A stretch of DNA of 23,454 nucleotides, taken from the IMG/VR virus record IMGVR_UViG_3300017719_000210, positions 1-23,454 of that record; one strand, given 5' to 3'. Under the pieces are notes generated by a model. That model saw nothing but the letters and a program-made list of their open reading frames with translations. It was not told where the DNA came from and ran no database searches. Shown here one piece after another: positions 1 to 19,876 of this stretch (within the stretch, counting starts at the first letter, position 1; the number at the start of each line of letters is the position of its first letter). The translations under genes were made by a program, and so were the position numbers. Source of the stretch: a virus.

Positions 1-2
1 AG

Positions 3-632
3 AAAGCATTTGAGGCAAATCCTAATTGTGTATGGGTATTTGGAATAGATGGTCTTCCATATCAAAGTTTTGCGTATCGTGAAAATCAAGATGGTGAATA
101 TCTATTTGACGTTATGTTAAAAGCAAGAAACATGAATATCAATGTAATATGGCAGTATCTAGTATTTAAATATAACGAAGATAAAATTGATTTTGCAAAA
201 AGATTAGCAGATAATCACGGAATAAAAATTGAAATACACCATACTGCAAGAGTTAATGAATTTCTTGCACCCACAGTTGAAATAGTAAAAGAAGTAGAAG
301 AAGAAAAAGTATTTGTACCAAAGTGTTTAAAAGACCCACAACAAAGAGCACCCTACTTAGCAGCCACAGGACAAATGTATCCATGTTGTTGGTTAGATGA
401 AGAACAGGTTCACGACCCCGAATATAAAGCGTTACAAAATGAACAACTAAATATTAGACATAACAAAGTAGAAGATATTATTAATAGTGAAACATGGCAA
501 ACATTTTACGATAACTTATATACTGATAAATGTCCTAGTTATTGTAAAAAGAAATGTACAACAACATTAAGAAACCCAACTAGAATAGTAAAGGGTAGAA
601 TTGATGGTAAGACAATGGAAGTAGAAAAATAA
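3..632 (+). CDS. Radical SAM/SPASM-type protein, 3' part (5' end outside window)
   Basis: The reading frame is open from base 3 to the stop at 630-632, giving the last 209 residues; the start lies upstream of the window. The visible part resembles the C-terminal half of radical SAM enzymes. It has a strand with WVFGIDGLPYQSFAYR, like the 'GxDG' substrate-binding strand of the barrel, then a cysteine-bearing tail with YPCCW and later CPSYCKKKC. These cysteines are arranged as in SPASM/twitch domains, which bind auxiliary Fe-S clusters. The CX3CX2C radical SAM motif itself would be upstream and is not seen. The gene ends one base before terminase, so the two are probably co-transcribed. Substrate unknown; peptide or small-molecule modification are both possible. 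An ATG at 114 exists but is internal to the domain and not the likely start. Confidence 0.7.
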   Translation, partial: KAFEANPNCVWVFGIDGLPYQSFAYRENQDGEYLFDVMLKARNMNINVIWQYLVFKYNEDKIDFAKRLADNHGIKIEIHHTARVNEFLAPTVEIVKEVEEEKVFVPKCLKDPQQRAPYLAATGQMYPCCWLDEEQVHDPEYKALQNEQLNIRHNKVEDIINSETWQTFYDNLYTDKCPSYCKKKCTTTLRNPTRIVKGRIDGKTMEVEK

Positions 633-633
633 T

Positions 634-2274
634 ATGAGTGCAAGAGACGAACATTATCTAGGTAATCCATTACTTAAAAAAGCAAATCAAGAATTAGAAT
701 TTACCAAAGATCAAGTCTTAGAAATACAAAAATGTATGGAAGACCCACAATACTTTGTGGAAAATTATATTAAGATTGTATCTCTAGATAAAGGACTTGT
801 TCCTTTTAAAATGTACAACTTTCAAAAAGACATGTTAGGTACATTCCATAAAAACAGATTTACAATTTGTAAACTTCCTAGACAGTCTGGTAAGTCAACA
901 ATTATGGTGTCATATCTTTTACACTATGCATTGTTTAATGAAAATAAAAACATTGCAATTCTCGCCAACAAGGCTGCAACTGCAAGAGACTTGTTAGGCA
1001 GATTACAACTTGCATATGAAAATCTTCCTAAGTGGTTACAACAAGGTGTTCTATCATGGAACAAAGGTTCTCTTGAATTAGAGAACGGAAGTAAGATACT
1101 TGCAGCATCAACCTCTGCATCAGCAGTTCGGGGTAGTTCATTTAATATTATATTCCTTGATGAGTTTGCATTCGTACCTGCCACTGTTGCAGAGCAATTT
1201 TTTAGTTCAGTGTATCCTACAATTTCTTCTGGTCAATCTACAAAAGTAATTATTGTATCTACACCTATGGGTATGAATATGTTTTACAAGTTATGGAATG
1301 ATGCTACACACAAACGAAACAGTTATATTCCTATTGAGGTACATTGGACGGAAGTACCTGGTCGTGATGAAGCGTGGAAAAAAGAAACAATCGCAAACAC
1401 TAGTGAACAACAGTTTGCCTCAGAGTTTGAGTGTGAGTTTTTAGGTTCTGCAAATACTCTTATCAATGGTTCTAAATTAAGATTGTTATCTTACAAAAAT
1501 CCAATAGAACAAGCAGGTGGATTAAAAGTATATGAGAAACCAATAAAAGATCATACATATTTTATTACTGCCGATGTTGCAAGAGGAACACAAAACGATA
1601 ACTCAGCATTTATTTGTTTTGATGTTACAACAGTTCCATACAAAATTGTTGCAGTATTTAAAGACAATGAAATAAAACCATTGTTATTTCCAAATAAAAT
1701 TAACGCAGTAGCAAGAGCATATAATCATGCATTTGTATTAACGGAAGTAAATGATATAGGACAACAAGTAGCAGACACACTACACTTTGAATTAGAATAT
1801 GATAATATTGTAATGTGTTATATGCGTGGTCGTGCTGGACAAATCATGGGTGGTGGGTTTTCTGGTACTAAAGGACAGTTAGGAGTTAGAACAACAAAAG
1901 CAGTTAAGAAGATTGGTTGTTCTAATATGAAACAAGTAATTGAGAATGATAAAATTATAGTAGAAGACTTTGATATAATAAATGAATTATCTACATTTAT
2001 TGTAAAAGGAAATCAGTTTGAAGCAGATACAGGTTCTAACGATGATTTAGTTATGTGTATTGTTTTAATGTGTTGGGCAATGGACCAGAAATATTTTAAA
2101 GAATTAACAGATGTAAATATCAGAGCAAATATGTTACAAGAAAATCAAAATCAAATGGAAAACGAAATGGCACCATTTGGATTTATGGATAATGGATTAG
2201 ATGACCCAGAGTTTGATGAATATGGGTCGACATGGAAACCTGTGAAAGTGAGAGACTATGAGACAGATTGGTAA
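634..2274 (+). CDS. 17: Terminase large subunit (gp17), DNA packaging ATPase/nuclease
   Basis: This is the motor that pumps phage DNA into the prohead through the portal and cuts the concatemer at the end of packaging. The N-terminal ATPase shows a Walker A motif (PRQSGKST, residues 82-89), a Walker B motif (NIIFLDEF, with D176 and E177) and the coupling motif VIIVSTPMG (205-213). The C-terminal RNase H-like nuclease shows the acidic residues D314 (ITADVARG), E371 (LTEVND) and D470/D471 (GSNDDLVM). At 546 residues it is shorter than T4 gp17 (about 610) but all motifs are present. ATG at 634 follows the upstream stop by one base and lacks a clear Shine-Dalgarno sequence. The 3' end overlaps the next gene by 17 bases. 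No small terminase (gp16) is seen in the window. Confidence 0.97.
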   Translation: MSARDEHYLGNPLLKKANQELEFTKDQVLEIQKCMEDPQYFVENYIKIVSLDKGLVPFKMYNFQKDMLGTFHKNRFTICKLPRQSGKSTIMVSYLLHYALFNENKNIAILANKAATARDLLGRLQLAYENLPKWLQQGVLSWNKGSLELENGSKILAASTSASAVRGSSFNIIFLDEFAFVPATVAEQFFSSVYPTISSGQSTKVIIVSTPMGMNMFYKLWNDATHKRNSYIPIEVHWTEVPGRDEAWKKETIANTSEQQFASEFECEFLGSANTLINGSKLRLLSYKNPIEQAGGLKVYEKPIKDHTYFITADVARGTQNDNSAFICFDVTTVPYKIVAVFKDNEIKPLLFPNKINAVARAYNHAFVLTEVNDIGQQVADTLHFELEYDNIVMCYMRGRAGQIMGGGFSGTKGQLGVRTTKAVKKIGCSNMKQVIENDKIIVEDFDIINELSTFIVKGNQFEADTGSNDDLVMCIVLMCWAMDQKYFKELTDVNIRANMLQENQNQMENEMAPFGFMDNGLDDPEFDEYGSTWKPVKVRDYETDW

Positions 2275-2956
2275 ACATGTATATGTAGATTATTCTGCAG
2301 GTGCATTTGGAGATTGGTTAAGATACTTTATAGCAGAGCATGATGGGTTTGAAAAGTTTGAAGAGTATGGTAGAGAAGGTGTGTATATTAACTATGTTGG
2401 TCACATAAACTTTACTACACCACATTATCCTATAAGACCACTTAAACAAATACCATTTACACATATTAAAACTGGTGATGATCTTATAGAAGAGTTTAAA
2501 AAACAAGCACCAAATTACGATAAGTACAGACAAGTATGGAAGTCTGCCGATGCACCAAAACTAATTGGTCAAGGACACACACTTGTTGGTTCTGATTGGA
2601 CTAAAATAGAAGATATAGACTTTCAGTATTACGATATTGTTAGAAAAAATTTAGATCATCTTATAATTTTTGTTTCATTAAGTCCATTCTCAAAATATGA
2701 GAAACCATATATGATGAGATATAGAGAAGATGCTAAAAAGAAAAAAACAGACTTAGAAAAAGAACATAAAAAAACATGGTTGTATAATTATGTAAATAAA
2801 GAATATCCTAAACATGAATTAAATTTTGAATTGGAGATAAATGAATTGTTTGAATATGATGAAGAATTATATACAAAACTAACAGAGTTTTTAAATGTAA
2901 AACCACTTCCTAATTGGAAAGATTATATTGATGAATTTAATGATAGGATACTTTAA
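2258..2956 (+). CDS. Conserved hypothetical, VDYxAGxFGDWLRYF family, copy 1
   Basis: A 232-residue protein of unrecognised function. It begins with VDYSAGAFGDWLRYFIAEH (about residues 10-28), which is repeated almost exactly at the start of the following gene. Further shared blocks are LSPFSKY, a PKHELNFELEINELF stretch, and a C-terminal FLxVxPLxxWKDYIxxF. The glycine-rich N-terminal strand-loop and the C-terminal helix pattern recall nucleoside-binding sulfotransferase-like proteins, but no clear P-loop or PAPS motif is visible, so this is only a suggestion. The ATG overlaps terminase by 17 bases, which suggests translational coupling. Very rich in Lys, Glu, Asp and Tyr, and no signal peptide or membrane segment is visible; probably cytoplasmic. 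Confidence 0.85.
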   Translation: MRQIGKHVYVDYSAGAFGDWLRYFIAEHDGFEKFEEYGREGVYINYVGHINFTTPHYPIRPLKQIPFTHIKTGDDLIEEFKKQAPNYDKYRQVWKSADAPKLIGQGHTLVGSDWTKIEDIDFQYYDIVRKNLDHLIIFVSLSPFSKYEKPYMMRYREDAKKKKTDLEKEHKKTWLYNYVNKEYPKHELNFELEINELFEYDEELYTKLTEFLNVKPLPNWKDYIDEFNDRIL

Positions 2957-3636
2957 TGAATCATGTTTTAGTTGATTACACTGCTGGGACTTTTGGAGAT
3001 TGGTTAAGGTATTTTATTGCCGAACATAATGGATTTCAAAAACTTCCATTTGAAACAGAAACATTATATGAAAAGTTTTTAAAATTAAAAATAGATAACA
3101 ATAAAGTTTGTTTAAACAATGTAAAAACTACAAATGATTTTATTAAAGAGTTTGAAAAGATTTCAAATTCAGATTTAAGGCAATGTTACAAATACGTTTC
3201 TGATTTAAACGTACCTGCAAGTCATAGTTGTGTTGGTGCAAATTGGTTAGAAGATGGTTCAATAATAGATGGCAAACCATTTAAGTGGGATTACACCAAT
3301 TATAATTTAATAAGAGAAACAGATCATAAAATAGTTTTTGTAATATTAAGTCCATTTTCAAAATATAAAGATTTGTATATAAAAAGACATGAGCTTTGGA
3401 AAGAAAATTTAAAGTTTAAAGATAATTGGAAAGAGTATCACGAAACAATTTGGAAAAAAAATTACATGAAAGATAATTTGCCAAAACATAAATTAAATTA
3501 TCAGCTAGAGATCAATAATTTACTTGACAAAGACGATGAAACCTACTATAGTTTGATAAAGTTCCTTGATGTGAACCCTATAGATAAATGGAAAGATTAT
3601 ATTAATGACTTCGATAGACTCATACTTTCGAAATAA
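2956..3636 (+). CDS. Conserved hypothetical, VDYxAGxFGDWLRYF family, copy 2
   Basis: A 226-residue paralogue of the preceding gene. It shares VDYTAGTFGDWLRYFIAEH at residues 6-24, the LSPFSKY block, the PKHKLNYQLEINNLL block and the C-terminal WKDYI tail, while the middle (about residues 30-120) has diverged in sequence and length. Its ATG overlaps the last base of the previous stop codon (TAATG), a typical coupled arrangement. The pair looks like an old tandem duplication that has since diverged. Function is not recognised; the sulfotransferase-like possibility noted for copy 1 applies equally weakly here. The 3' end overlaps the next gene by 32 bases. Confidence 0.85.
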   Translation: MNHVLVDYTAGTFGDWLRYFIAEHNGFQKLPFETETLYEKFLKLKIDNNKVCLNNVKTTNDFIKEFEKISNSDLRQCYKYVSDLNVPASHSCVGANWLEDGSIIDGKPFKWDYTNYNLIRETDHKIVFVILSPFSKYKDLYIKRHELWKENLKFKDNWKEYHETIWKKNYMKDNLPKHKLNYQLEINNLLDKDDETYYSLIKFLDVNPIDKWKDYINDFDRLILSK

Positions 3637-4117
3637 CTGGCGACCAAACTACGATAAGTTTAAATATTCTGGTTGGCAGTTATTAGATAAGATAGACAAA
3701 GACGCACATATACTAGATATAGGATGTGGTTACAATTTACTTAAACCACACTTTCCTAATTTATATGGAATAGACCCACATAATAGTAATTCAGATCAAG
3801 AGATTGCATTTGAAGATTACAAACCACATAAACAATTTGACGTATTTCTCGCATTAGGAAGTCTTAACTTTGGAACCAAAAAAGTTCTTGACAAACAGAT
3901 AAAACATTTATATGATATTACAAAAAAGAACGATATAGTTTATTGGAGACAAAACCCTGGGTTGAGTGATCACCCATGGCAAGGTGTTGAGGATATAGTT
4001 TTCTTCCCATGGTCTTTAAAATGGAATACACATTATTGTGATAAGTATGATTTTGAATTAAAAGAATATGCACAGGATAATGGCAATAGATTATATGCAG
4101 AGTGGGTAAGACAATAA
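3605..4117 (+). CDS. Class I SAM-dependent methyltransferase-like protein (small)
   Basis: A 170-residue protein with a Rossmann-type motif I, HILDIGCGYN (about residues 35-44), followed by LYGIDPHNS, where the acidic residue of motif II would contact the SAM ribose, and then FDVFLALGSLNF and a late DIVYWRQNPG strand. These fit a class I methyltransferase fold. The target is unknown. It is short for the class, with little room for a substrate domain. The ATG at 3605 overlaps the upstream gene by 32 bases, and the next gene follows directly with no gap. It could be a degenerate SAM-binding protein rather than an active enzyme. Confidence 0.75.
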   Translation: MTSIDSYFRNNWRPNYDKFKYSGWQLLDKIDKDAHILDIGCGYNLLKPHFPNLYGIDPHNSNSDQEIAFEDYKPHKQFDVFLALGSLNFGTKKVLDKQIKHLYDITKKNDIVYWRQNPGLSDHPWQGVEDIVFFPWSLKWNTHYCDKYDFELKEYAQDNGNRLYAEWVRQ

Positions 4118-5557
4118 ATGGAATTACTATTTTTACTATTTGGAATTTTATACGGATTAATTATAGGTATCATTCCAGCTGCAGGTGCAACAACAGGATT
4201 AATTACATTGTTTGGATTTATGCCATACTTTGCAGGTGACCCTTATCTTGGTGTTATCTTTTGTGTTGCCGTAGTGGCATCATCAACAACAGGTGACTCC
4301 TTTAGTGGAGTGTTGTTAGGAATACCAGGGGCAAACTCTGCGGCCGCAACAATGGTTGACGGATTTCCCATGGCACAAAACGGAGAGGCAACGAGAGCAT
4401 TATCTGCTGCGATTACTTCATCAACATTAAACGGATTAATATTTGGGTCATTGACATTTTTATTTTTACCATATTATACAAACATTGTTATGTACATGGG
4501 TATACCAGAATTGTGGTCATTAGTAATACTTTCATTTGTTACAGTAGGATTTGTTTCAAACACTTATTACATTAGAAGTTTAATTGCAATTGGTTTAGGA
4601 ATTACATTAGGACTAGTTGGTATGGACGCAAACAATGTTGCTAGATTTACATTAGGATGGTCTTACTTAGAAGATAGTATTCAGATACTTCCTTTTGTTG
4701 CAGGTCTATTCGCAGTACCAGAATTACTATCTAGTTGGAAAACTAGAAACGCAACTGATAGCGTAGAATATCAGTACACAGGTGGATGGCGACAAATTAA
4801 ACAAGGAATGAAAGATACACTTAGATGTTGGAAAGATAGTATTCGAGGTGGACTTATAGGTTCAGGTATTGGATTACTGCCAGGATTAGGTGGAGCGATA
4901 GCAGATTGGTTATCATACGGGTCAACTGTAGCATCAAATCCAAAAGAAGATTTTGGTGGTGGAAATGTCAGAGGTGTTATTGGGGCAGAGGGTGCTAACA
5001 ATTCACAAAAAGCATCTTCATTTATTCCTACTGTTTTATTTGGAATACCAGGAGCTCCATTTGCAGCTATCCTTATGGGATTATTTTTGTATCTAGGAAT
5101 TGACTTAGGTTCACCAGATACGTTTTATGATGACAAATTATTTGATAGTATGGCATTTGCATTTTTATTAGGAACAGCGATTACTGCTGTGATCTGTTAT
5201 GTCTTGGCGTATTACGCTGGATGGGTTGCAAAGATTCCATACGCATACTACTTCCCTATTATCGTTGCAGTTATTATTTGGGCAACTTTACAATATACAG
5301 GTGGTTGGGAAGACCTTGCAGTATTAACAATTTTTAGTATCTTAGGTATTGTTGCAAAACAATATAAATTTAGCAGACCTGCGTTACTAATTGGTTTTTT
5401 GTTAAGTGATAGAATATATAATCTCACTTATCAATTAACCTCTTTACACACGGTACAAGATTTAATTACAAGACCAATATTCTTGTTTATCGTGTTATCA
5501 ACAATCGTAATAACATATTGGTCGTTAACAACTAGGAGTAAATTAAACTATGCTTAG
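4118..5557 (+). CDS. tctA: TctA-family membrane subunit of a tripartite tricarboxylate transporter (TTT)
   Basis: A very hydrophobic 479-residue protein with about ten or more membrane segments, close to the roughly 500 residues usual for TctA. TctA is the large channel-forming subunit of TTT uptake systems, which import organic acids such as citrate using an ion gradient and a periplasmic binding protein. The family's repeated signatures are visible: GIIPAAGATTG (residues 17-27), GDSFSGVLLGIPGANSAAAT (59-78), then GFPMAQNGEATRAL, and in the second half GLLPGLGGAIADWLSYGS (252-269) and VLFGIPGAPFAAILMGLF. It starts one base after the upstream stop and overlaps the TctC-like gene by 8 bases. 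The reading frame looks intact. In a phage this is a candidate auxiliary metabolic gene. No TctB-like small membrane subunit is found nearby, so it may work with host TctB or without one. The substrate cannot be told from sequence. Confidence 0.93.
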   Translation: MELLFLLFGILYGLIIGIIPAAGATTGLITLFGFMPYFAGDPYLGVIFCVAVVASSTTGDSFSGVLLGIPGANSAAATMVDGFPMAQNGEATRALSAAITSSTLNGLIFGSLTFLFLPYYTNIVMYMGIPELWSLVILSFVTVGFVSNTYYIRSLIAIGLGITLGLVGMDANNVARFTLGWSYLEDSIQILPFVAGLFAVPELLSSWKTRNATDSVEYQYTGGWRQIKQGMKDTLRCWKDSIRGGLIGSGIGLLPGLGGAIADWLSYGSTVASNPKEDFGGGNVRGVIGAEGANNSQKASSFIPTVLFGIPGAPFAAILMGLFLYLGIDLGSPDTFYDDKLFDSMAFAFLLGTAITAVICYVLAYYAGWVAKIPYAYYFPIIVAVIIWATLQYTGGWEDLAVLTIFSILGIVAKQYKFSRPALLIGFLLSDRIYNLTYQLTSLHTVQDLITRPIFLFIVLSTIVITYWSLTTRSKLNYA

Positions 5558-6605
5558 ACTATTGACAACATTTGCAGTTGCTTTTATAATGATGACTTCA
5601 TCGGTGAGAGCTGACTACACTTTAATAGTTCCTCAAAAACCATCTGGTGGTACATCTGTATGGGCACAAATCGTTGTGGCTGAATGGGAAAAACATTTGG
5701 GGGAAAAAATCAACTTAAAATATATGCCAGGCTCGAGAGATCAAGCAGGCCCAAATAAATTTCATGAAGAATTAAGATTTGACGATAAGACAATTCTTGT
5801 TTCTCATGGTGGGAATGGTATATCATTTATTTTAGAACCCGTAACTTACAATTATTTTGAATGGGAGTCCGTAGGACACATGAACCTTAATATCATTGTA
5901 GGTGCAAACGAAAATGTAAATGCAAACTCAAAACAGATTGCATTCTCAGCTGGTTCAGGTATGACACCTGAAATTATGGCAATCGTTCAATTACTCGCAG
6001 GGCCAAATGAAGACCCTAACGAAGTATTTAAAAATCAAATCATTTGGGTAAAAGGAATGTCTGGTGGCGAAAGAAGACTTGCGTTCATGCGTGGAGATTT
6101 AAACGCAACTAGAGAAAATCCAGCTGCATATAAAAAACATGTAATGCCTTTGATTGAAAAAGGACAAGCATACACATGGTTTCATCATGGTATTCTAAAC
6201 ATGGAAACAGGTGATCATGATAATGACCCTAACTTTACAGAACCAACATTCGAACAATTGTATAAAGAAACTTGGGGTGTAGAACCATCAGGTGATTTCT
6301 ACGATGCATATAAACTTGTTAAGTCATGGAGAGACTCAATCCAAAAAGCATTTTGGGTAAATGCAGGCAATCCAAACAAACAAAAATTAGTAGATGCATT
6401 AGTCAAAATGGCTAACGACCCAGAGTCTGTAGCTGCTATTGAAAAGAAAGTTGGAAAGTATCAATGGCGTGTTGGTGCAGAAGGTGATAAAACAGTAGAG
6501 ATATTGAAGTCACTTATTACACCAGGTGCTTTGAAAACACTATCTGATTTTGGTAAAAATCAACTAGGGTATAACGCAATTTACAAAGAAGAGTTAACTA
6601 AGTAA
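5550..6605 (+). CDS. tctC: TctC-family periplasmic substrate-binding protein of a TTT transporter
   Basis: A 351-residue protein with a classical Sec signal peptide: MLRLL, a hydrophobic core, then likely cleavage after A21 (SVRA|DYT). The mature part begins YTLIVPQKPSGGTSVWAQIV, matching the TctC/Bug pattern in which a strand near the N-terminus is followed by a 'PGGxxD'-like ligand loop; here the loop reads PSGGTS. Later segments (LKYMPGSRDQAGPN, KTILVSHGGNGISF, the FSAGSGMTPEIMAI helix) fit the two-lobed binding fold. It would capture a carboxylate in the periplasm and deliver it to the TctA-like protein encoded just upstream, with which it overlaps by 8 bases. It is somewhat longer than typical TctC (about 320) and carries an unusual middle segment rich in His, Asp and Asn (about 210-230). 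Ligand unknown. Confidence 0.88.
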   Translation: MLRLLTTFAVAFIMMTSSVRADYTLIVPQKPSGGTSVWAQIVVAEWEKHLGEKINLKYMPGSRDQAGPNKFHEELRFDDKTILVSHGGNGISFILEPVTYNYFEWESVGHMNLNIIVGANENVNANSKQIAFSAGSGMTPEIMAIVQLLAGPNEDPNEVFKNQIIWVKGMSGGERRLAFMRGDLNATRENPAAYKKHVMPLIEKGQAYTWFHHGILNMETGDHDNDPNFTEPTFEQLYKETWGVEPSGDFYDAYKLVKSWRDSIQKAFWVNAGNPNKQKLVDALVKMANDPESVAAIEKKVGKYQWRVGAEGDKTVEILKSLITPGALKTLSDFGKNQLGYNAIYKEELTK

Positions 6606-7187
6606 ATGTATATACTTGTAACAGGCGCCCCAGGCTCTAAATGGAGTAGTGTCGTTAAGAACATTTATTGGTCAGATGATATAGATCATACTGATTATAC
6701 AGACGAAAGAATGTATTATCATGATGCAGATACACCTGGCGAAAAACAATTAATGCACACAGGCGCCTATTACGACCCAGGCATGGAATTTGGGAATCAA
6801 CGTGATCAATGGGATTTACCTTTCTCTGGCAAAGGGAAAAGGATTATTAAATCTCATTGTTTTGCGTATGAGTTAGACGAATTAAAAAAACATAAACATC
6901 CTATTGTCATGGTATATAGAAATGATATAGAATGCTATGATTGGTGGAAACATTGTGGTGAGTTTAATATCACATATCCAAAATATACTTACTATGAAAA
7001 TTTATCAAGTATGTGGTTTCATATTCAAGAACAGAATAAAGAAATTATGGAGTTTTGTAAAAACAATTGGAACAGAATTAAAAAAGTTAAAGACAATGGA
7101 GAATTAGCAAAAGAATTAGAAATACAATATTCAGGTGAGAAACACGACTACAAGAAAAAGGATATTCAAGTATATGTCTATAAGTAA
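6606..7187 (+). CDS. P-loop / sulfotransferase-like protein
   Basis: A 193-residue protein starting YILVTGAPGSKWSSVVKNI, a glycine-rich loop resembling the 5'-phosphosulfate binding loop of sulfotransferases and related P-loop proteins (G-A-P-G-S-K). A later HPIVMVYRNDIECYDWW (about residues 97-113) resembles the sulfotransferase strand-plus-Arg/Ser 3'-phosphate region. The rest is rich in Tyr, Trp, His and Lys. It starts immediately after the TctC-like stop codon, so it is probably in the same transcript, but nothing ties it to transport. The 3' end overlaps the oxygenase gene by 14 bases. It may be a distant relative of the tandem pair at 2258-3636; this is a weak inference. Function otherwise unknown. 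Confidence 0.75.
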   Translation: MYILVTGAPGSKWSSVVKNIYWSDDIDHTDYTDERMYYHDADTPGEKQLMHTGAYYDPGMEFGNQRDQWDLPFSGKGKRIIKSHCFAYELDELKKHKHPIVMVYRNDIECYDWWKHCGEFNITYPKYTYYENLSSMWFHIQEQNKEIMEFCKNNWNRIKKVKDNGELAKELEIQYSGEKHDYKKKDIQVYVYK

Positions 7188-7836
7188 TTGGGAAGAAGCA
7201 AAGAAAAGAAGTAAATATCATTTTAGTACATCAATTATTGATACAACTAACATACAATCATTAGGTAAATTTCGTGGCGATTGGAAAAAAGATTTAGAGT
7301 TTGCTCTTGGTTGTGTTGAAAAAATTAATTGGGGTAATAGAAGAGCAGCTGCAGATAGACCAAATAATGATATTGAATCTGAGGAATATGATTTAATTAA
7401 AGCAGGTGCAAACCCTAAGATGACAATATACAGAGGTCTAACAGATTTTAGTAAATGTCCTACTATTCAAAAGATGATAGACTTCTTTGAATTAAAGAAA
7501 GATGTAAAAGCAAAATTACATATTCAGTTTACAGGTGATGTATTGAATATGCATATAGATAAACTATATGATTTAAATCCATTTGGAAGTGCAAACGATG
7601 TAATAAGAATTATGGTTATGTTAGAAGATTGGCAACCAGGTCAATTCATAATATATGGAAATCAAACTTATACTAATTGGAAAGCAGGTGATATTCACAA
7701 ATTTGATTGGATGAATATACCCCATGCGACAGCCAATGCAAGTTTATATCCTAGACCTATGTTAGTGATAACGGGTGTGATGACATTAAAGACTAAAGAG
7801 ATTATATCAACTCAATTAGATCATTATCTAACTTAA
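7174..7836 (+). CDS. 2OG-Fe(II) oxygenase-like protein
   Basis: A 220-residue protein with the metal and cosubstrate triad of the 2-oxoglutarate/Fe(II) dioxygenase barrel: H127-x-D129 (NMHIDK), a distal H184 (WMNIPHATANA) and R194 (YPRPML) for 2-oxoglutarate. GDIHKFDW before H184 and MLVITGVM after R194 complete the typical C-terminal strands. Such proteins hydroxylate amino acids, proteins or small molecules; related genes are common in marine T4-like phages, with targets mostly unknown. I chose the ATG at 7174 over a GTG at 7135 because an AAAAGG lies 13 bases upstream and the overlap with the previous gene is then only 14 bases. The 3' end overlaps the convergent - strand gene by 35 bases. 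Confidence 0.8.
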   Translation: MSISNWEEAKKRSKYHFSTSIIDTTNIQSLGKFRGDWKKDLEFALGCVEKINWGNRRAAADRPNNDIESEEYDLIKAGANPKMTIYRGLTDFSKCPTIQKMIDFFELKKDVKAKLHIQFTGDVLNMHIDKLYDLNPFGSANDVIRIMVMLEDWQPGQFIIYGNQTYTNWKAGDIHKFDWMNIPHATANASLYPRPMLVITGVMTLKTKEIISTQLDHYLT

Positions 7837-8101
7837 TCCAACAATTATGACAGATAACTTTAGAATTTTCAATCAATTTAACGATTTCCTCTCTCGCTTC
7901 TGTATTAATTCCTGTCACTTTAGATTTTTTTCTTATTTCAGCGTCATGTGGATGAAACTTCAAACAGATAGTTTCAGACTCCCCACAATTGCAACAAGAC
8001 GATGTATCAAGATGTTTGTTTACCCAAGAAACTCTTTTAGAGTAATTTCTTCTAGCGACTTTTTTGATAGTTTCCTTATATTTTTCATAATGAGTCTGCA
8101 T
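7802..8101 (-). CDS. Small HNH-like / zinc-binding protein
   Basis: This is the only convincing - strand gene in the window. From the ATG at 8101 it encodes 99 residues: a basic N-terminal helix region, C36-x-x-C39 (CCNCGE), LKFHPHDAE (H50, H52, D53), and C84-x-x-C87 (ICHNC). This is the zinc-ribbon plus beta-beta-alpha layout of small HNH homing-type nucleases in phages. The usual Asn/His after the second Cys pair (typically CxxCHxxxH) is replaced by CWIKLD, so it may be a catalytically weak or non-nuclease relative. A longer form starting at 8179 is open, but its extra residues read through the promoter region, so I prefer 8101. The ATG sits 5 bases after a - strand TATAAATA box with no Shine-Dalgarno sequence. 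It overlaps the oxygenase gene tail-to-tail. Confidence 0.75.
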   Translation of the reverse strand: MQTHYEKYKETIKKVARRNYSKRVSWVNKHLDTSSCCNCGESETICLKFHPHDAEIRKKSKVTGINTEAREEIVKLIENSKVICHNCWIKLDNDLIELI

Positions 8102-8104
8102 ATT

Positions 8105-8120
8105 AGTATTTATAAATACT
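8105..8120. promoter_or_regulatory. Palindromic, possibly bidirectional T4-type late promoter
   Basis: AGTATTTATAAATACT is a perfect 16-base palindrome that contains the T4 late -10 box TATAAATA on both strands (+ at 8111-8118, - at 8107-8114). On the - strand it points into the HNH-like gene, with the ATG five bases beyond the box; on the + strand it points to the tail sheath gene. Known: the T4 gp55 sigma factor recognises TATAAATA as the sole core element. Inferred: activity in both directions. Confidence 0.6.
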
Positions 8121-8157
8121 ATGGCATATAAAAAACGATTGTAGAAATGTTTATTTC

Positions 8158-8165
8158 TATAAATA
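8158..8165 (+). promoter_or_regulatory. Late promoter for tail sheath gene 18
   Basis: CTATAAATAC contains the exact T4 late box TATAAATA 57 bases before the gp18 start codon. Transcription would begin near 8171, leaving a leader that carries the 8181-8196 palindrome and a strong AAGGAGA ribosome site at 8210-8216. Confidence 0.75.
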
Positions 8166-8180
8166 CATGTATAAAACAAG

Positions 8181-8222: not shown

Positions 8223-10229
8223 ATGGCATTTTTAGTATCACCTGGTGTACAGGTAAATGAAGTCGATTTAACAAATGTAGTTCCAGCTGTTGCAACATCT
8301 ATTGGTGCTATCGCAGGTGCATTTGAAAAAGGTCCTGTTGGTTCTATACAGACAGTCACTTCAGAAGGTGATCTAGTTTCTAAGTTTGGAAAACCAAATT
8401 CTAATAACTTTGAAAACTGGTTAGCAGCTGCTAGTTTCCTACAATATGGAAACACACTAAGAATGGTAAGAGCAGAATCAGCTATTGTTAACGCAGGAGC
8501 AAACAGCGGAATATTAATTAGGGATGATGATCATTACGAACAATCATTCAGAGCAGGCCAAGGTTCGCATGGCGAATGGGCTGCAAGATCAGCAGGAACA
8601 TGGGGTAACTCAATCGGAGTTGCTATCTGTGCTACTGCAACAGCATACGAACAAGTTTTATCTGCAAGCAACTTAACAGTTGGCGAAGACGCAGTAGGCG
8701 CTACAACAATCGCAGTTGATGATGCAGATTTAGCTAACAACGTAATTAACGTTGGCGATATGATTTCTTTCTTTTCAGACTCAGCAGGTACAACACCTGT
8801 CACAGGCGAAACAGGAAACGAATACGAAGTAACTGCTATTTCAACAAACGATTTAACAATAAGATTAAAAGACGACCCTAACGGTGCAGGTGTACAAAAC
8901 ATTATACCTGATAACTCATACATCAAAAGAAAGTGGAGATTTCATGATCTTTTTGATAGAGCACCAGGTACATCACCTTACGCCACTGAAAATGGTAAAG
9001 GAACAGCAGACGAAATGCACATTGTAGTGTATGACACAACAGGAAACATCACAGGATTTGATGTTGATGTTGCAGGTCAAAGAACAAAAGGAGTTCTTGA
9101 AACTTACGCACAAGTTTCTAAACACCCAAGTGCAAAAACACCACAAGGTAATTCAAACTACTACCCAGATGTTATCTTTTCTCAATCAACAAACGTATAT
9201 TGGACTGATCACACATCATCAGGTTCAAATTGGGGAACAGATATATCTACAGGTACAGCATTTACAGCAGTAGATTCACCAGTAGTAGATTCATTAACAG
9301 GTGGAACAGATGATTACTCATTAACAAATGGGGAAATCTCAATTGCATATAATAAATTTGCAGACGCAGAATCAGTAGATGTTAACTTAATCATCGGTGG
9401 TTCTTCATCAATCGCAGCTGACACACAAGCAAACTATGATACACACGGAACAATGTTGATCGATCTTGCGTCAGCTAGATTAGACTGTATGGCATTTATA
9501 TCGCCACACAGAGCGGCAACTGTTGGAGTAGCAGACCCTGCAACTCAAACAACTAATGTTAAAAATGCAGCTGCTACACTTCCAAGTTCATCTTACGCAG
9601 TACTAGATAGTGGATACAAATATATGTACGACAGATACAATGATGTTTACAGATATATACCACTTTCAGGTGATATTGCTGGATTATGTGCTAGAACAGA
9701 TGATATTGCTGATGTATTTTTCTCACCTGCAGGTTTCAATAGAGGAACAATCAGAGGTGCAGTAAAACTTTCTTACAATCCAAATCAATCACAAAGAGAC
9801 GACTTATACGCAGCGAGAGTTAACCCAGTAGTTAATTTTCCAGGCCAAGGTGTTACCCTATTTGGTGACAAAACTGCCTTGACAACTCCAAGTGCATTTG
9901 ATAGAATAAACGTTAGAAGACTGTTTATCGTTCTTGAAAAAGCGATTAGTACAGCATCTAAATTTCAATTGTTTGAATTTAACGATGCATTTACTAGAGC
10001 GCAATTCAAAAACTTGGTAGAGCCGTTTTTAAGAGACATACAAGGAAGAAGAGGAATTGACTCTTTCCAAGTTGTATGTGACGGAACAAATAACACAGGC
10101 GAAGTTGTTGATAGAAATGAATTTGTTGCAGATGTTTATGTTAAACCTGCAAGAAGTATCAACTTTATAACACTAAACTTCATTGCGACACGAACAGGTG
10201 TTGCCTTTAGTGAAGTAGGAGGAGCGTAA
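8223..10229 (+). CDS. 18: Contractile tail sheath protein (gp18)
   Basis: This 668-residue protein forms the outer contractile cylinder of the myovirus tail; T4 gp18 is 659 residues. The N-terminus FLVSPGVQVNEVDLTN followed by AIAGAFEKGPVG is the characteristic sheath start. The conserved C-terminal core is clear: FNRGTIRGAVKLSYNP, INVRRLFIVLEKAI, FEFNDAFTRAQFKNLVEPFL and VYVKPARSINFITLNFIATR. The middle (about residues 170-430) is variable, Gly/Thr/Asn rich, and is where sheath proteins carry surface-exposed insertion domains. The start is preceded by AAGGAGA with good spacing, and a TATAAATA late promoter lies upstream. The tail tube gene follows after two bases. Confidence 0.96.
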   Translation: MAFLVSPGVQVNEVDLTNVVPAVATSIGAIAGAFEKGPVGSIQTVTSEGDLVSKFGKPNSNNFENWLAAASFLQYGNTLRMVRAESAIVNAGANSGILIRDDDHYEQSFRAGQGSHGEWAARSAGTWGNSIGVAICATATAYEQVLSASNLTVGEDAVGATTIAVDDADLANNVINVGDMISFFSDSAGTTPVTGETGNEYEVTAISTNDLTIRLKDDPNGAGVQNIIPDNSYIKRKWRFHDLFDRAPGTSPYATENGKGTADEMHIVVYDTTGNITGFDVDVAGQRTKGVLETYAQVSKHPSAKTPQGNSNYYPDVIFSQSTNVYWTDHTSSGSNWGTDISTGTAFTAVDSPVVDSLTGGTDDYSLTNGEISIAYNKFADAESVDVNLIIGGSSSIAADTQANYDTHGTMLIDLASARLDCMAFISPHRAATVGVADPATQTTNVKNAAATLPSSSYAVLDSGYKYMYDRYNDVYRYIPLSGDIAGLCARTDDIADVFFSPAGFNRGTIRGAVKLSYNPNQSQRDDLYAARVNPVVNFPGQGVTLFGDKTALTTPSAFDRINVRRLFIVLEKAISTASKFQLFEFNDAFTRAQFKNLVEPFLRDIQGRRGIDSFQVVCDGTNNTGEVVDRNEFVADVYVKPARSINFITLNFIATRTGVAFSEVGGA

Positions 10230-10231
10230 TC

Positions 10232-10762
10232 ATGGCAAACATAGATGACTTTAAAGCAAATCTAGCTGGTGGTGGTGCAAGACCCAATCAGTTCAGAGTT
10301 ACTATTACACCACCTTCTGGTATCGCTACAGGATTGAATGTTAGAAACGCATCATTCTTATGTAAATCTTCAAACTTGCCAGGTCAAACACTTGGCGAAA
10401 TCCCTGTACCTTTTAGAGGTAGAAATATCTACATCGCTGGGGACAGAGAGTTTGAAACTTGGACTTCAACGTTCATTAATGATACAGACTTTAATATCAG
10501 AAACGCAATGGAATTGTGGATGAACGGTATTAATGATCTAGCGAATAACACTGGTGTTATCGCTTCTGCTGAATATCAATCAGACTTAACGATTGAACAA
10601 TTAGACAGAGACGATACAACTTTGAAAACTTACATCTTCAGAAATGCATACCCTTTGACACTAGGTCAAATTGATGTTGCTTACGAAACAACAAATGCAA
10701 TTGAAGAGTTTGAGGTAACTTGGAGATACCAACACTTTGAAGCAAGTGGTGTTAACTTCTAA
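10232..10762 (+). CDS. 19: Tail tube protein (gp19)
   Basis: This 176-residue protein builds the inner tube through which DNA passes; T4 gp19 is 163 residues. The family pattern is clear: RPNQFRVTITPPSG, FLCKSSNLPGQTLGEIPVPFRGR, IYIAGDREFETWTSTFIND and FNIRNAMELWMNGIND, ending with the EEFEVTWRYQHFE strand. It has a very strong ribosome site (TAGGAGGAGCG, within the 3' end of gp18) and is clearly translated in step with gp18. The sequence shares the tube fold with the protein at 17665-18237. Confidence 0.96.
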   Translation: MANIDDFKANLAGGGARPNQFRVTITPPSGIATGLNVRNASFLCKSSNLPGQTLGEIPVPFRGRNIYIAGDREFETWTSTFINDTDFNIRNAMELWMNGINDLANNTGVIASAEYQSDLTIEQLDRDDTTLKTYIFRNAYPLTLGQIDVAYETTNAIEEFEVTWRYQHFEASGVNF

Positions 10763-10806
10763 GCGATCTACTAAATAGTTAAAAAAAATACTAGTAGGAG
10801 TATATT
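10763..10806 (+). promoter_or_regulatory. Leader between tail tube and portal genes, with weak late-box-like motif and inverted repeat
   Basis: The 44-base gap holds ACTAAATA (10770-10777), two mismatches from the late box, framed by CTACTA (10768-10773) and TAGTAG (10792-10797), which can pair. TAGGAG at 10795-10800 is the ribosome site for the portal gene. The motif is too weak to call a promoter with confidence. Confidence 0.3.
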
Positions 10807-12411
10807 ATGGCAGAGCTATTCGGATTTAAATTCGAAAGAATAAAAGATACAGCACCAGAAGACAGATTTGTCCAAAAATCACCCGATGACGGCACAGTCG
10901 AAATATCGGGTGGTGGACATTTTGCTCAGGTACTTGATATTGACGGAAGAGATCGAAACGATCTTGATTTAATCAGACGATATAGAGACATTGGACAACA
11001 ACCAGAGTGTGATAGTGCAATTGAAGATATTGTAAACGAGGCAATCGTTTCAGATGAAAGAGATAAATCTGTTGATATAGTATTAGACAATCTAGAATAT
11101 TCAGAAAAAATTAAAAAAAGTATGAGAGAAGCATTTGACGATGTTCTCTCATTACTTGAATTTGATACTAAAGGTCACGACATCTTTAGAAGATGGTATG
11201 TTGACGGAAGATTATTTTATCATAAAGTTATTGATTCAAAAAACCCTAAACTAGGTATTCAAGAAGTAAGATACATTGACCCTAGAAAAATTAGAAAAGT
11301 AAAAGCAGTACAGAAAGTACCAGGGCCTCAAGGTTCAGTCTTAGTTAAACAAGAACAAGATTATTATCTTTACAATGAGAAGATGTTGAAAGGTATGATG
11401 AACCAAGGTCTAAAGATTGCAGATGACTCTATCACATATTGTCCGTCTGGTTTGATTGACGCAAACAAAAATCAAGTACTATCTTATTTACATAAAGCAA
11501 TTAAACCTGTCAATCAATTAAGAATGATTGAAGACAGTTTAGTTATTTACAGAATTTCAAGAGCACCAGAAAGAAGAATTTTCTATATTGATGTAGGTAA
11601 TTTACCTAAGATCAAAGCAGAGCAGTATCTAAAAGATGTAATGAATAGATACAGAAACAAACTTGTTTACGATGCAAAGACAGGTGAGATCAGAGACGAT
11701 AGAAATCATATGTCAATGCTTGAAGATTTTTGGTTACCTAGAAGAGAAGGTGGCAGAGGAACAGAGATCACAACTTTACCTGGTGGTTCTAACTTAGGTG
11801 AGATAGATGATATTACTTACTTCCAAAGAAAACTTTACAGATCGTTGAATGTTCCTATTTCAAGATTAGAAGCAGAGCAATCATTCTCACTAGGAAGATC
11901 AACAGAGATTACAAGAGACGAATTAAAATTTACTAAGTTTATCCAAAGACTTAGAAAGAAATTTGTACCACTATTCTTAGATATGTTAAGAACACAATTA
12001 GTTTTAAAAGGTGTTATTAATGTTGAAGAGTGGCCAAAGATTAAAGAACACATTCAATTTGACTTCTTAAAAGATGGTCACTTTGCAGAATTAAAAGCGC
12101 AAGAATTATTGAATGATAGAATTAATATGTTAGGTTCAGTTGAAAACTACATAGGTACTTTCTTTAGTAAAGAGTTTGTTTACAAACAAGTATTAAGAAT
12201 GACAGACTTTGAAGTTAAAGAAATGCAAGCACAAATGAAACGTGAGTCAGGTGCAGATGTAGATGACGGTGGAATAGATGTTCCTCAAACAGATGGTATT
12301 ACAAGAGTACCTTCATTTGGTGGAGCACCATTAGTTGCACCAGAACCTGCACAAACACCAGATCAAGCAACAGGCGATGGGCCTGATGCTGACGATATAA
12401 ATAATACATAA
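10807..12411 (+). CDS. 20: Portal protein (gp20)
   Basis: A 534-residue protein (T4 gp20: 524) that forms the dodecameric ring at the capsid vertex, nucleates prohead assembly and docks the terminase and neck. Typical portal segments are RYRDIGQQPECDSAIEDIVN near residue 60, FDTKGHDIFRRWYVDGRLFYH, YIDPRKIRKVK, IYRISRAPERRIFYIDVGNLP, and the SLNVPISRLEAEQSFSLGR crown-side segment. The C-terminal 50 residues are low-complexity (Pro, Gly, Asp rich) and probably disordered inside the capsid. It starts after a TAGGAG ribosome site; its last codons contain the TATAAATA box that likely drives the next gene. Confidence 0.96.
   Translation: MAELFGFKFERIKDTAPEDRFVQKSPDDGTVEISGGGHFAQVLDIDGRDRNDLDLIRRYRDIGQQPECDSAIEDIVNEAIVSDERDKSVDIVLDNLEYSEKIKKSMREAFDDVLSLLEFDTKGHDIFRRWYVDGRLFYHKVIDSKNPKLGIQEVRYIDPRKIRKVKAVQKVPGPQGSVLVKQEQDYYLYNEKMLKGMMNQGLKIADDSITYCPSGLIDANKNQVLSYLHKAIKPVNQLRMIEDSLVIYRISRAPERRIFYIDVGNLPKIKAEQYLKDVMNRYRNKLVYDAKTGEIRDDRNHMSMLEDFWLPRREGGRGTEITTLPGGSNLGEIDDITYFQRKLYRSLNVPISRLEAEQSFSLGRSTEITRDELKFTKFIQRLRKKFVPLFLDMLRTQLVLKGVINVEEWPKIKEHIQFDFLKDGHFAELKAQELLNDRINMLGSVENYIGTFFSKEFVYKQVLRMTDFEVKEMQAQMKRESGADVDDGGIDVPQTDGITRVPSFGGAPLVAPEPAQTPDQATGDGPDADDINNT
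12396..12403 (+). promoter_or_regulatory. Late promoter inside the 3' end of gene 20, for the prohead core gene
   Basis: The exact late box TATAAATA lies in the last codons of the portal gene, 22 bases before the ATG at 12426. The predicted start of transcription falls just before the AAGGAGA ribosome site (12414-12420), giving a very short leader. Confidence 0.55.
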
Positions 12412-12425
12412 TTAAGGAGATTATT

Positions 12426-12608
12426 ATGAGTTCAGAAAAAATAGTAGATGCATTGGCAAAAGGTTCATCGTTAGATGCTGAAGATGCGTTTAAAGAAACA
12501 ATGAAAACTAAAATTGCAGATGCAATCGAAGATAAAAAGATTGAAGTTGCAAGAGGTTTAGTAAACAATCACATTGATGCGACTCCAGCCGAAACAAGCG
12601 AGGAGTAG
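12426..12608 (+). CDS. 67: Prohead core protein (gp67-like)
   Basis: A 60-residue acidic protein between portal and protease, where gene 67 lies in T4 relatives. The central ALAKGSSLDAEDAFKETMKT and KIADAIEDKKIEVARGLV follow the pattern of T4 gp67, in which a helix with 'AAR..F.EAM' is followed by 'I.LI.EEKI.IAR', and the tail is acidic. gp67 is a minor component of the assembly core, degraded by the gp21 protease during maturation. A strong AAGGAGA site precedes the ATG. Identification rests on both similarity and position. Confidence 0.8.
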   Translation: MSSEKIVDALAKGSSLDAEDAFKETMKTKIADAIEDKKIEVARGLVNNHIDATPAETSEE

Positions 12609-12612
12609 TAAA

Positions 12613-12861
12613 TTGAGATTTGAAGACTTACATTCATCGATATTCGAAGGTGATGAGTACAAGAAATCTAGAGAATATAGAAAACAATCGCCTAAAATGA
12701 AGAAAGCGATTGATGATTTATTCAAAAAAATGGATTCTAAGGGTTCAAATTTCCTAAATAATTTTGAGAAAACAATAACAGATGTTGCAAAACGACATAG
12801 AGTACCAGAAAGCAAACTCTATGATTATTTTGAAAAAGAAGCGTCTGACTTTATGAGTTAA
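12613..12861 (+). CDS. Small basic protein at the gp68 (prohead core) position
   Basis: Starting at TTG 12613 this encodes 82 residues beginning LRFEDLHSSIFEGDEYKKSREYR. I chose the TTG because GAGGAG (12600-12605) lies 7 bases upstream and because an in-frame ATG at 12574 would overlap gp67 by 35 bases and add residues with no family look. The protein is helical and lysine-rich (KMKKAIDDLFKKMDSK) and ends in DYFEKEASDFM. Gene order makes it the counterpart of T4 gene 68, another prohead core protein, but T4 gp68 is longer and I see no decisive motif. Unusual points are the rare TTG start and the overlap of its ribosome site with the upstream coding end. Confidence 0.7.
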   Translation: MRFEDLHSSIFEGDEYKKSREYRKQSPKMKKAIDDLFKKMDSKGSNFLNNFEKTITDVAKRHRVPESKLYDYFEKEASDFMS

Positions 12862-12871
12862 GGAATAGAAA

Positions 12872-13255
12872 ATGGCAGTAGTAAAACAAACATTAAAAGA
12901 TTCAGATTTTGAACATGTAGTCAAAGTCACTACAACAGGTACAAATTCAACTGCAAGTATTGTTGACGCCTCTGCATTAGCAGGAGCTTCTACTGACCCA
13001 AGGTTATCAATAGTATCATGTACATGGACAACAGGTTCACAAACAGACATTTTATTTGATGCAACATCAAACGTAGTTGCATTATCATTAAACGGAAATG
13101 GCGCAATCAACGGAGGTGCTCAACATCTTCCGTCTATATCAAACAACGCAGGTTCGGGTGTTACAGGTGACATCCTTTTAACAAATTCGTCTGCTTCAGT
13201 TGGTACAGTCATTTTACATTGTAGAAAGGTATCGGGTTTCGATAATATAACGTAA
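12872..13255 (+). CDS. Putative virion structural protein, beta-rich, unknown
   Basis: A 127-residue protein beginning MAVVKQTLKDSDFEHVVKVTTTG and rich in Ser, Thr, Ala, Asn and Gly, with alternating hydrophobic residues typical of beta-strands (DILFDATSNVVALSLNGNG, GDILLTNSSASVGTVILH). No enzyme motif, signal or membrane segment. It lies between prohead core genes and the protease with an AAGGA site 6-10 bases before its ATG, so a role as a head decoration or minor capsid component is a reasonable inference from position and composition. I do not recognise it as a named T4 gene product. Confidence 0.75.
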   Translation: MAVVKQTLKDSDFEHVVKVTTTGTNSTASIVDASALAGASTDPRLSIVSCTWTTGSQTDILFDATSNVVALSLNGNGAINGGAQHLPSISNNAGSGVTGDILLTNSSASVGTVILHCRKVSGFDNIT

Positions 13256-13256
13256 G

Positions 13257-13916
13257 ATGCAAACAGTTAAACTAATTACAGAAGCGCAAGACTTTACAAC
13301 AAATAACTTTTTAATTGAAGAAAAAAATGGCAAAAAAGATTATAAGATTAAAGGTATCTTTATGCAATCTAATATTAAAAACAGAAATGGTAGAGTATAT
13401 CCAAAAGAAGTTTTAGTAAAAGAAGTTAAAGCTTACAACAAAGAATTTATTCAAAAGAATAGAGCATTTGGTGAGTTAGGACACCCAGAAGGTCCAACAG
13501 TAAACTTAGATAGAGTTTCACATATGATTACATCACTTAAAGAAGAAGGTGATAATATTATTGGTGAGGCAAAAATCATGGACACACCAATGGGTAAGAT
13601 TGTTAAAAGTTTAATGGACGAAGGTGCAACACTAGGAGTTTCATCTAGAGGAATGGGTTCTTTAGAAAACAAAGGTGGTGCAAACTATGTCAGATCAGAT
13701 TTCAAACTAGCAACAGCAGGTGATATTGTTGCAGACCCATCAGCACCAAGTGCTTTCGTAGAGGGCATCATGGAAGGTAAAGAATGGGTTTGGGATCACG
13801 GGTCACTAGTTGAGTCACATGTTGCAGAAGCAAAAGCAAGAATTGAAGAAAGAGCAAAGTATAAACAAGATTTAGAATCTAGTTTAGAATTTGCAAAATT
13901 TTTGAAACAGTTATAA
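13257..13916 (+). CDS. 21: Prohead core protease (gp21)
   Basis: A 219-residue serine protease that cleaves the scaffold, core and capsid proteins once the prohead is complete. The herpesvirus-protease-like active site is visible: H76 in FGELGHPEGP, the serine in GVSSRGMGS (S129/S130), and a conserved ADPSAPSAFVEGI segment (D160). The N-terminal IKGIFMQSNIKNRNGRVYP is also typical. It is close to T4 gp21 (212). The ATG is one base after the previous stop. Immediately after the stop codon lies the inverted repeat with a late promoter in its loop. Confidence 0.95.
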   Translation: MQTVKLITEAQDFTTNNFLIEEKNGKKDYKIKGIFMQSNIKNRNGRVYPKEVLVKEVKAYNKEFIQKNRAFGELGHPEGPTVNLDRVSHMITSLKEEGDNIIGEAKIMDTPMGKIVKSLMDEGATLGVSSRGMGSLENKGGANYVRSDFKLATAGDIVADPSAPSAFVEGIMEGKEWVWDHGSLVESHVAEAKARIEERAKYKQDLESSLEFAKFLKQL

Positions 13917-18787: not shown

Positions 18788-19876
18788 ATGATTTGTAAAG
18801 TACCCAGTGTTTCGCTTAACATATCTTCACAAGGTTACATTAATCTATGTTGTGAAGCTCCTGTTTATCACATAAAACATATTGACGAAGTTGATGACCT
18901 AGAAGATTTTTTTAATTCTAGTGTTATGGATTACTATAACAAAAATAAAAAAAATGCATGTGTACAATGTTTAAAAAAAACTAATAATGGAATTGAAACA
19001 TTTAAAACAAGAATAGAAAAATATTTTGTTTTTCCAAATGACAACTTAGATAAACAAGCAAGAAGCGTAGGAATGAATGTTCCTGTTCGTCATTTAGAAT
19101 TTACTTTATCAAATATATGTAATCAAACGTGTGCTATGTGTGGTAGTTTTTACAGTAACAAATGGCAAGACTTAGATAAAAAATTAGGTAGAAAAGTTTT
19201 TCCTTTACAAAAAGTAGGTAATGATGCTGTTGATAAAATAGAAAAAATTTTATACGGATTAAATTATATTGAATTAAAAGGTGGTGAACCATTTGCAGAT
19301 ATAAAAAATTTTAGAATTTTAAAAAAACTAGTTGAAGTAAATCCCAAATGCATGGTACATATTGTTACAAACATGCAACGTATCACACCAGAAGCAATGT
19401 CAATAGTTAAACAACTTCCTAATACAAAATTATTTGCTAGTATTGATGGTACTCATAAAATATATGATTGGATAAGAGACGGAAATTTTGATAAGACTGT
19501 CAAAACAATGGAACAATATTATAATGAAACAGGCAACACAATTCAAATAGGAACAACAATTAGTTTATATAACTTTTTTAACTTATTAGATATACAAGAT
19601 TATTTTTCTGATAAAAAATATATTCATAATGTTGTATTTGATAATTGGGTTAATAGTATAGAAGATGGTGCGCCTAATGTTTTAAGAGAAGAAGTATATA
19701 ACAAACAAATATTAAAACATCAAAAAACATTAAAAAATTTTACACCTAAAAAATATACAATTCCAAAAGACAAAAATTATAATCACAGAATAAATTTTGA
19801 CATATTAAATAAACATAGAGGATTTAATTTACTTGATCATGTTCCTCAATTAAAAGAATGGTATAATCAATGTTAA
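18788..19876 (+). CDS. Radical SAM protein (twitch-type), unknown substrate
   Basis: A 362-residue protein. The radical SAM cluster motif is C111-x3-C115-x2-C118 (SNICNQTCAMCGS), followed by GGEP at 165-168, which binds the SAM amino group, and barrel strands such as HIVTNMQRI and LFASIDGTHKIYDWIR. The N-terminus carries another cysteine set, C21-C22 and C58-x2-C61, in a layout (CC near a beta turn, then CxxC) like an auxiliary-cluster or SPASM-like module placed at the front. It could modify a peptide, protein or nucleotide. It is inserted between uvsY and uvsW and overlaps the methyltransferase gene by 7 bases, so the two probably act in one pathway. The composition is unusually AT-rich, with long A runs. 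Confidence 0.85.
   Translation: MICKVPSVSLNISSQGYINLCCEAPVYHIKHIDEVDDLEDFFNSSVMDYYNKNKKNACVQCLKKTNNGIETFKTRIEKYFVFPNDNLDKQARSVGMNVPVRHLEFTLSNICNQTCAMCGSFYSNKWQDLDKKLGRKVFPLQKVGNDAVDKIEKILYGLNYIELKGGEPFADIKNFRILKKLVEVNPKCMVHIVTNMQRITPEAMSIVKQLPNTKLFASIDGTHKIYDWIRDGNFDKTVKTMEQYYNETGNTIQIGTTISLYNFFNLLDIQDYFSDKKYIHNVVFDNWVNSIEDGAPNVLREEVYNKQILKHQKTLKNFTPKKYTIPKDKNYNHRINFDILNKHRGFNLLDHVPQLKEWYNQC

Follow-up and report, generated by a model that had tools for sequence, protein, structure and literature searches.

A T4-like phage, represented by the 23,454 nucleotides analysed here (IMG/VR record IMGVR_UViG_3300017719_000210, in the following the window), carries a gene for a TctA membrane channel followed directly by one for a predicted secreted TctC-type binding protein, the pair being kept together in a phage operon under strong purifying selection with no detectable TctB. 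Both proteins fall in a TTT subfamily, of which the nearest cellular members found have a TctB-like domain on TctA itself. The explanation favoured from sequence comparison, at slightly better than even probability, is that the phage pair would act as a reduced two-part TTT importer.

The Gene Pair and Its Setting

T4-type TerL, tail sheath and gp23 capsid genes (gp23: PF07068, E 3e-146) occur in order in the window, placing it among the T4-like phages as a relative of the Kyanoviridae, and by TerL the nearest isolates are Pelagibacter phage HTVC008M and Methylophilales phage Melnitz (68-69% identity). The sheath gene comes directly after TerL in HTVC008M, and Melnitz has just one minus-strand ORF separating the two. 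Compared with these isolates the window genes therefore form an insertion at the TerL-sheath junction (Table 1). Within the insertion tctA and tctC lie on the same strand and overlap by 8 bp. The two tandem ORFs next to TerL gave no family match and belong to a family restricted to TerL-sheath contexts, with 0-3 copies among those lineages. Elsewhere in the window, between structural genes and UvsW, a radical SAM/SPASM-like gene (18788-19876) is followed by a TylF-type methyltransferase gene (19870-20379).

Table 1. Features of the TerL-sheath region of the window and loci of the second pair of TctA and binding protein in related contigs.
Feature	Position	Strand	Remarks
Terminase large subunit TerL	634..2274	+	Left border of insertion; PHROG terminase, E 1e-67
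Two tandem related ORFs, 232 and 226 aa, one family	2258..3636 (2258-2956, 2956-3636)	+	Between TerL and methyltransferase
Methyltransferase-like protein, 170 aa	3605..4117	+	Module member; DIGCGYN; abuts tctA directly
tctA-like gene, 479 aa, membrane channel subunit	4118..5557	+	PF01970; C-terminus at TctA/TctB domain boundary of cellular relatives
tctC-like gene, 351 aa	5550..6605	+	Predicted signal peptide and periplasmic binding protein of TctC/Bug fold
P-loop protein, 193 aa	6606..7187	+	Module member; GAPGSKWSS; sulfotransferase-like by motif only
2OG-Fe(II)-oxygenase-like protein, 220 aa	7174..7836	+	Variable module member; HxD...H...R
Small HNH-like ORF	7802..8179	-	Right border of insertion; position also occupied by a minus-strand ORF in Melnitz
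T4-type late promoter motif TATAAATA	8158..8165	+	Ahead of sheath gene
Tail sheath gene	8223..10229	+	Right neighbour; synteny with HTVC008M and Melnitz
Second pair, L182 (IMGVR_UViG_3300029319_007985)	9951-13481		
Second pair, L214	5800-8021		
Second pair, L215	4274-7289		
Second pair, L217	1338-4807		

The late promoter motif TATAAATA was found upstream of all eight distinct sheath genes compared and of none of 57 distinct tctA genes, and no exact T4-type late promoter occurs on the + strand from position 1 to 8110 of the window. As the module in the window's lineage is packed closely behind TerL, it is probably co-transcribed with it. An initial sequence-only reading had regarded the late-gene setting as odd for such genes, a worry weakened both by the absence of late promoters ahead of tctA and by the position of the module in most relatives, which is away from the TerL-sheath region.

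Identity of the Two Proteins

In a Pfam search TctA matched PF01970 over profile positions 1-422 of 423 (307.9 bits, E 1.2e-91), identifying it as the channel subunit of the TTT family, and GIPGA is found in both of its halves (residues 68-72 and 309-313). The structure model of TctA was poor (pLDDT 45) and was discarded as unusable. In one relative (L006:553-1989) an in-frame stop interrupts tctA in its last fifth.

The N-terminus of the TctC-like protein, MLRLLTTFAVAFIMMTSSVRA/DYT, is a Sec-type signal and PSGGTS follows at residues 31-36. None of 14 family members matched PF03401, the Pfam model for TctC-type proteins, even at E 1, the TctC-like protein had no match in Pfam, NCBIfam or PHROGs, and the PDB gave nothing significant when searched by sequence, whether with single proteins or with profiles. 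The TctC proteins encoded beside cellular TctAB fusions (see below) are likewise weak against PF03401, with one of four above the cut-off. Remote homology gave a different answer from Pfam, in that hhalign aligned the TctC-like family, over nearly the whole mature length, with the TctC whose gene adjoins that of the nearest cellular TctA (prob 99.9, E 2.6e-31). The best 15 PDB fold matches of its structure model (pLDDT 70) were all members of the TctC/Bug family or unnamed relatives (TM 0.43-0.64) and included TphC, Bug27, MatC and a Polaromonas TctC. By profile comparison and fold search the second gene product is a predicted TctC/Bug-type binding protein. In the aligned phage proteins T187, R188, E189, N190 and P191 are invariant within one conserved stretch, where cellular TctC proteins have a YQTSSAY-type sequence; the stretch may mark a changed ligand site, a guess pending a structure.

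These results bear out the sequence-only reading in its description of an adjacent, overlapping and intact pair, set between the terminase and tail sheath of a T4-like phage, with GIPGA signatures in both halves of TctA and a signal peptide plus PSGGTS loop in the second protein. Its placement of the first protein in the TctA family held at profile level; that of the second in the TctC family failed with Pfam and stood in profile-profile comparison and fold search.

Cellular Relatives and Descent

Sampling for cellular relatives covered 197 Pelagibacter-order genomes, 385 genomes from the same class and 399 from the same phylum. Phage TctA found its best counterparts there in open frames of 646-686 aa, in which TctA is extended at the C-terminus by some 170-200 TctB-type residues. 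These TctAB fusions were mostly seen beside a TctC gene, and in SAR11 the phage TctC profile matched exactly those TctC genes that lie beside TctAB fusions. The two-gene tctC and TctAB-fusion loci of SAR11 and other Pseudomonadota are the closest relatives found of both phage proteins, the phage TctA differing in that it stops before the C-terminal TctB-like domain and shares about 34% identity with the fusions. It retains 46 of the 63 columns that are near-invariant in cellular TctA, which was counted for a two-part importer, and the 17 changed columns were counted against it.

In a quick tree with midpoint root and cellular sampling from one phylum, the phage clade (100) was sister to the TctAB-fusion clade (97), standard SAR11 TctA fell outside, and the stem of the phage clade measured 1.49 changes per site. 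Loss of a fused TctB domain from phage TctA was not borne out, as in this quick tree the phage clade lies beside the fusion clade and not within it. The TctAB fusion has been described as rare, with a single case given (PMC5812351), and is probably commoner than this since its C-terminal TctB-like domain escapes PF07331. Five of the cellular tctC and TctAB-fusion loci, from SAR11 and other bacteria (L134, L139, L140, L141 and L174), adjoin prpF-like genes, three of which were confirmed as PF04303, suggesting a carboxylate substrate for the cellular TctAB-fusion subfamily.

Distribution, Linkage and Selection

Profile searches found relatives of the TctC-like protein in 351 and of TctA in 275 IMG/VR contigs, these being metagenomic so that contig counts are not independent events. 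Hundreds of marine virus contigs, T4-like phages among them, have this closely packed pair. Where enough flanking DNA was available, tctC lay directly downstream of tctA in 93 of 94 distinct tctA genes, and tctA directly upstream of tctC in 78 of 79 distinct tctC genes. In the exception, L294, tctC lies 1.5 kb from tctA with the 2OG oxygenase and methyltransferase of the module between them. With 93/94 distinct relatives keeping the two genes adjacent the pairing is far from chance, and the 8-bp overlap was present in all 119 locus records scored. Median pairwise omega was 0.066 for tctA and 0.063 for tctC, compared with 0.17 for the tail sheath, so that both pair genes are under strong purifying selection at an omega of about 0.065.

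Cellular DNA miscounted as viral, or a recent and functionless pickup of host genes, would also place such a pair on these contigs. IMG/VR contigs can be mis-sorted, the gp23 capsid gene was present in just five of 13 records checked and the tctA of L006 has its in-frame stop, but TerL and gp23 lie on the window's own contig, and both the long stem of the phage clade and the strong purifying selection speak against recent, functionless acquisition. In addition, when 84,980 cellular species genomes were scanned with short conserved patterns, which distant relatives would escape, a single near copy came to light, on a 7.9-kb contig of a Pelagibacter bin that itself carries the same phage module. 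This explanation is largely refuted and is considered very improbable. Among cultured phage records the pair was absent and the TctC-like protein had no match, and the TctA matches were distant only (<31% identity) and in unannotated or bacterial records.

The Search for TctB

PF07331 (TctB) had no match in 20 longer records, a weak test as the TctB-like domains fused to cellular TctA also escape this model. It was rejected as the sole test for TctB because of this blindness, and two custom profiles were built, A4 from the TctB-like domains of the fusions and A5 from SAR11 TctB proteins that stand alone, each of which recovers its own family; compared with one another they gave a modest match (prob 88.6, E 2.6e-6, a single pair). 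Neither profile matched the six-frame ORFs of the window, of the fetched phage flanks or of three records of 172, 108 and 101 kb. A hydrophobicity and transmembrane screen of these three records gave no shared small four-TM candidate, and apart from TctA none of the ORFs in the window reaches three predicted TM segments. In keeping with the sequence-only reading, a TctB, as a small four-TM subunit either separate or fused, was detected neither in the window nor in the longer relatives checked, although a very divergent one could be missed since TctB is poorly conserved and all of the records may be incomplete.

The sequence-only reading had offered two options, a reduced two-part system or a pair using the host TctB. 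As TctB is missing in all longer relatives checked too, the first is the better supported. That the pair works only with TctB supplied by the host is judged unlikely: stand-alone TctB is present in the TTT loci of many Pelagibacter-order genomes, but the cellular proteins found closest to phage TctA have the TctB-like domain fused to TctA and not free, and a TctA match is absent from 111 of the 197 sampled Pelagibacter-order genomes. Against the two-part importer itself stands the requirement of the related TRAP system for its small subunit DctQ (PMC5812351).

A small unrecognised membrane protein of the phage might instead replace TctB. Many of 51 locus records have, ahead of tctA, a family of ~150 aa with two hydrophobic segments, and in the L047 group a membrane protein family of ~90-110 aa comes directly after tctC. 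However, neither family is universal and the window has neither of them, and the ~90-110-aa family is also found away from the pair in other contigs, so that this replacement is rated as having a low probability, below that of a host-supplied TctB.

The Surrounding Module

The sequence-only reading missed a wider module around the pair. Clustering of neighbour genes revealed a constant set consisting of tctA, tctC, a P-loop protein of ~190 aa, in many cases a protein resembling 2OG-Fe(II) oxygenases, and one resembling methyltransferases. Their respective counts are 123, 126, 122, 79 and 121 among about 127 locus records, in which some contigs were fetched and counted repeatedly. The module lies at the TerL-sheath junction as in the window, beside gene families c11/c7/c6, beside families c39-c41 or beside c33 and c42, and in the more distant L047 group it has another gene order. 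The oxygenase-like protein gave a weak match in the family search, and its iron triad and 2OG-binding Arg are invariant (H127, D129, H184 and R194), as is expected of a 2OG-Fe(II) oxygenase-like protein. The methyltransferase-like protein matched Methyltransf_23 weakly and below the cut-off, and the P-loop protein of the window had no family match; its assignment as a sulfotransferase was rejected, the motif being the only indication and profile support absent.

Only the gene neighbourhood hints that the transported carboxylate and the 2OG oxygenase are connected. The same neighbourhood, with enzymes (P-loop protein, 2OG oxygenase and methyltransferase) as constant companions, would also fit a pair that does not serve food import and that exports a product of the module enzymes or interferes with host uptake or sensing. 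In characterised TTT systems, however, the secreted TctC-type binding protein serves uptake (PMC5812351), and tctA is retained wherever tctC is; export or interference is thus held to be improbable, on a par with a replacement TctB. For the same reason, that tctA is kept with tctC, the competition with host TctC that had been proposed from the sequence is not favoured.

A Second Pair of TctA and Binding Protein

A few related contigs, from large phages, contain a second and distant pair of TctA and binding protein that had likewise been overlooked (Table 1). In the 172-kb record (G002) another TctA of 446 aa is followed directly by a secreted 274-aa protein, with two 2OG-oxygenase-like genes upstream. 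Three more contigs carry relatives of this pair, in L217 in the same order as in the 172-kb record, in G003 with three 2OG-oxygenase-like genes adjoining the binding protein, and in G005 reversed and with no 2OG gene directly adjacent. The second pair thus lies directly beside 2OG-oxygenase-like genes in three of the four contigs; in three it is followed by a PP-loop protein (SGGSDSH/TGGTDSH), and no TctB was found beside it in any of the four, an absence that counts in favour of the two-part importer. Its TctA forms a separate long-branched clade in the quick tree, and in Pfam its binding protein resembles ABC-type binding domains only weakly. Given these two pairs, a bolder reading is that at least two separate phage TctA lineages would be truly bipartite TTT importers with no need of TctB, their carboxylate being consumed by enzymes of the module, the 2OG-Fe(II) oxygenase for example, which we regard as possible but rather doubtful.

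As separate observations, a cytochrome b-like protein of a bc complex (G002) and AzgA-type purine permease-like proteins (G002 and G004) were noted by eye at 93489-94748 and 134336-135625 of G002 and 55201-56496 of G004, and a SufB-like gene lies at 35232-36665 of G002.

Relation to Known Systems and Implications

Cyanophage PstS is a phage-supplied periplasmic binding protein that comes without a membrane channel. Like PstS the phage pair would give the infected cell a binding protein, and here a channel is provided too. The citrate TctCBA system of Salmonella (PMC5812351) shares with the phage pair a TctA family protein and a secreted TctC-type protein in one operon. The phage pair differs in having no TctB, in its order (tctA-tctC rather than tctC-tctB-tctA), in a binding protein that has diverged beyond the reach of the Pfam TctC model and in being phage-borne. 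Archaeal TctA homologues without TctB and TctC are known (PMC5812351) and likewise represent TctA without TctB, whereas the phage retains TctC.

Genes of TTT type have been mentioned in passing on marine viral contigs, as a tctA domain on a SUP05-associated viral contig (PMC4164917) and on a viral scaffold where a tricarboxylate-transport gene adjoins norB/nirK (PMC8115048); the available portions of both papers contain no analysis of a pair and no description of a missing TctB or of a module. The main text of a survey of pelagimyophages (PMC7029224) does not mention TctA, and nothing in the literature searched was found to describe the pair, its module or the lack of TctB.

In the reduced two-part importer the binding protein would pick up a small carboxylate in the infected cell's periplasm and dock on TctA. 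TctA would then move the carboxylate inward together with ions, TctB having become dispensable in the phage version, and the imported carboxylate may feed the infected cell or the module enzymes (2OG oxygenase, P-loop protein and methyltransferase) during infection.

The function of TctB in the TTT family is an open question (PMC5812351), and a natural, widespread and strongly selected TctA-TctC pair without TctB makes the necessity of TctB directly testable. The pair also extends phage-carried uptake to a channel together with its binding protein, beyond the binding-protein-only case of PstS, and could let phages alter the choice of dissolved organic carbon taken up by infected marine bacteria.
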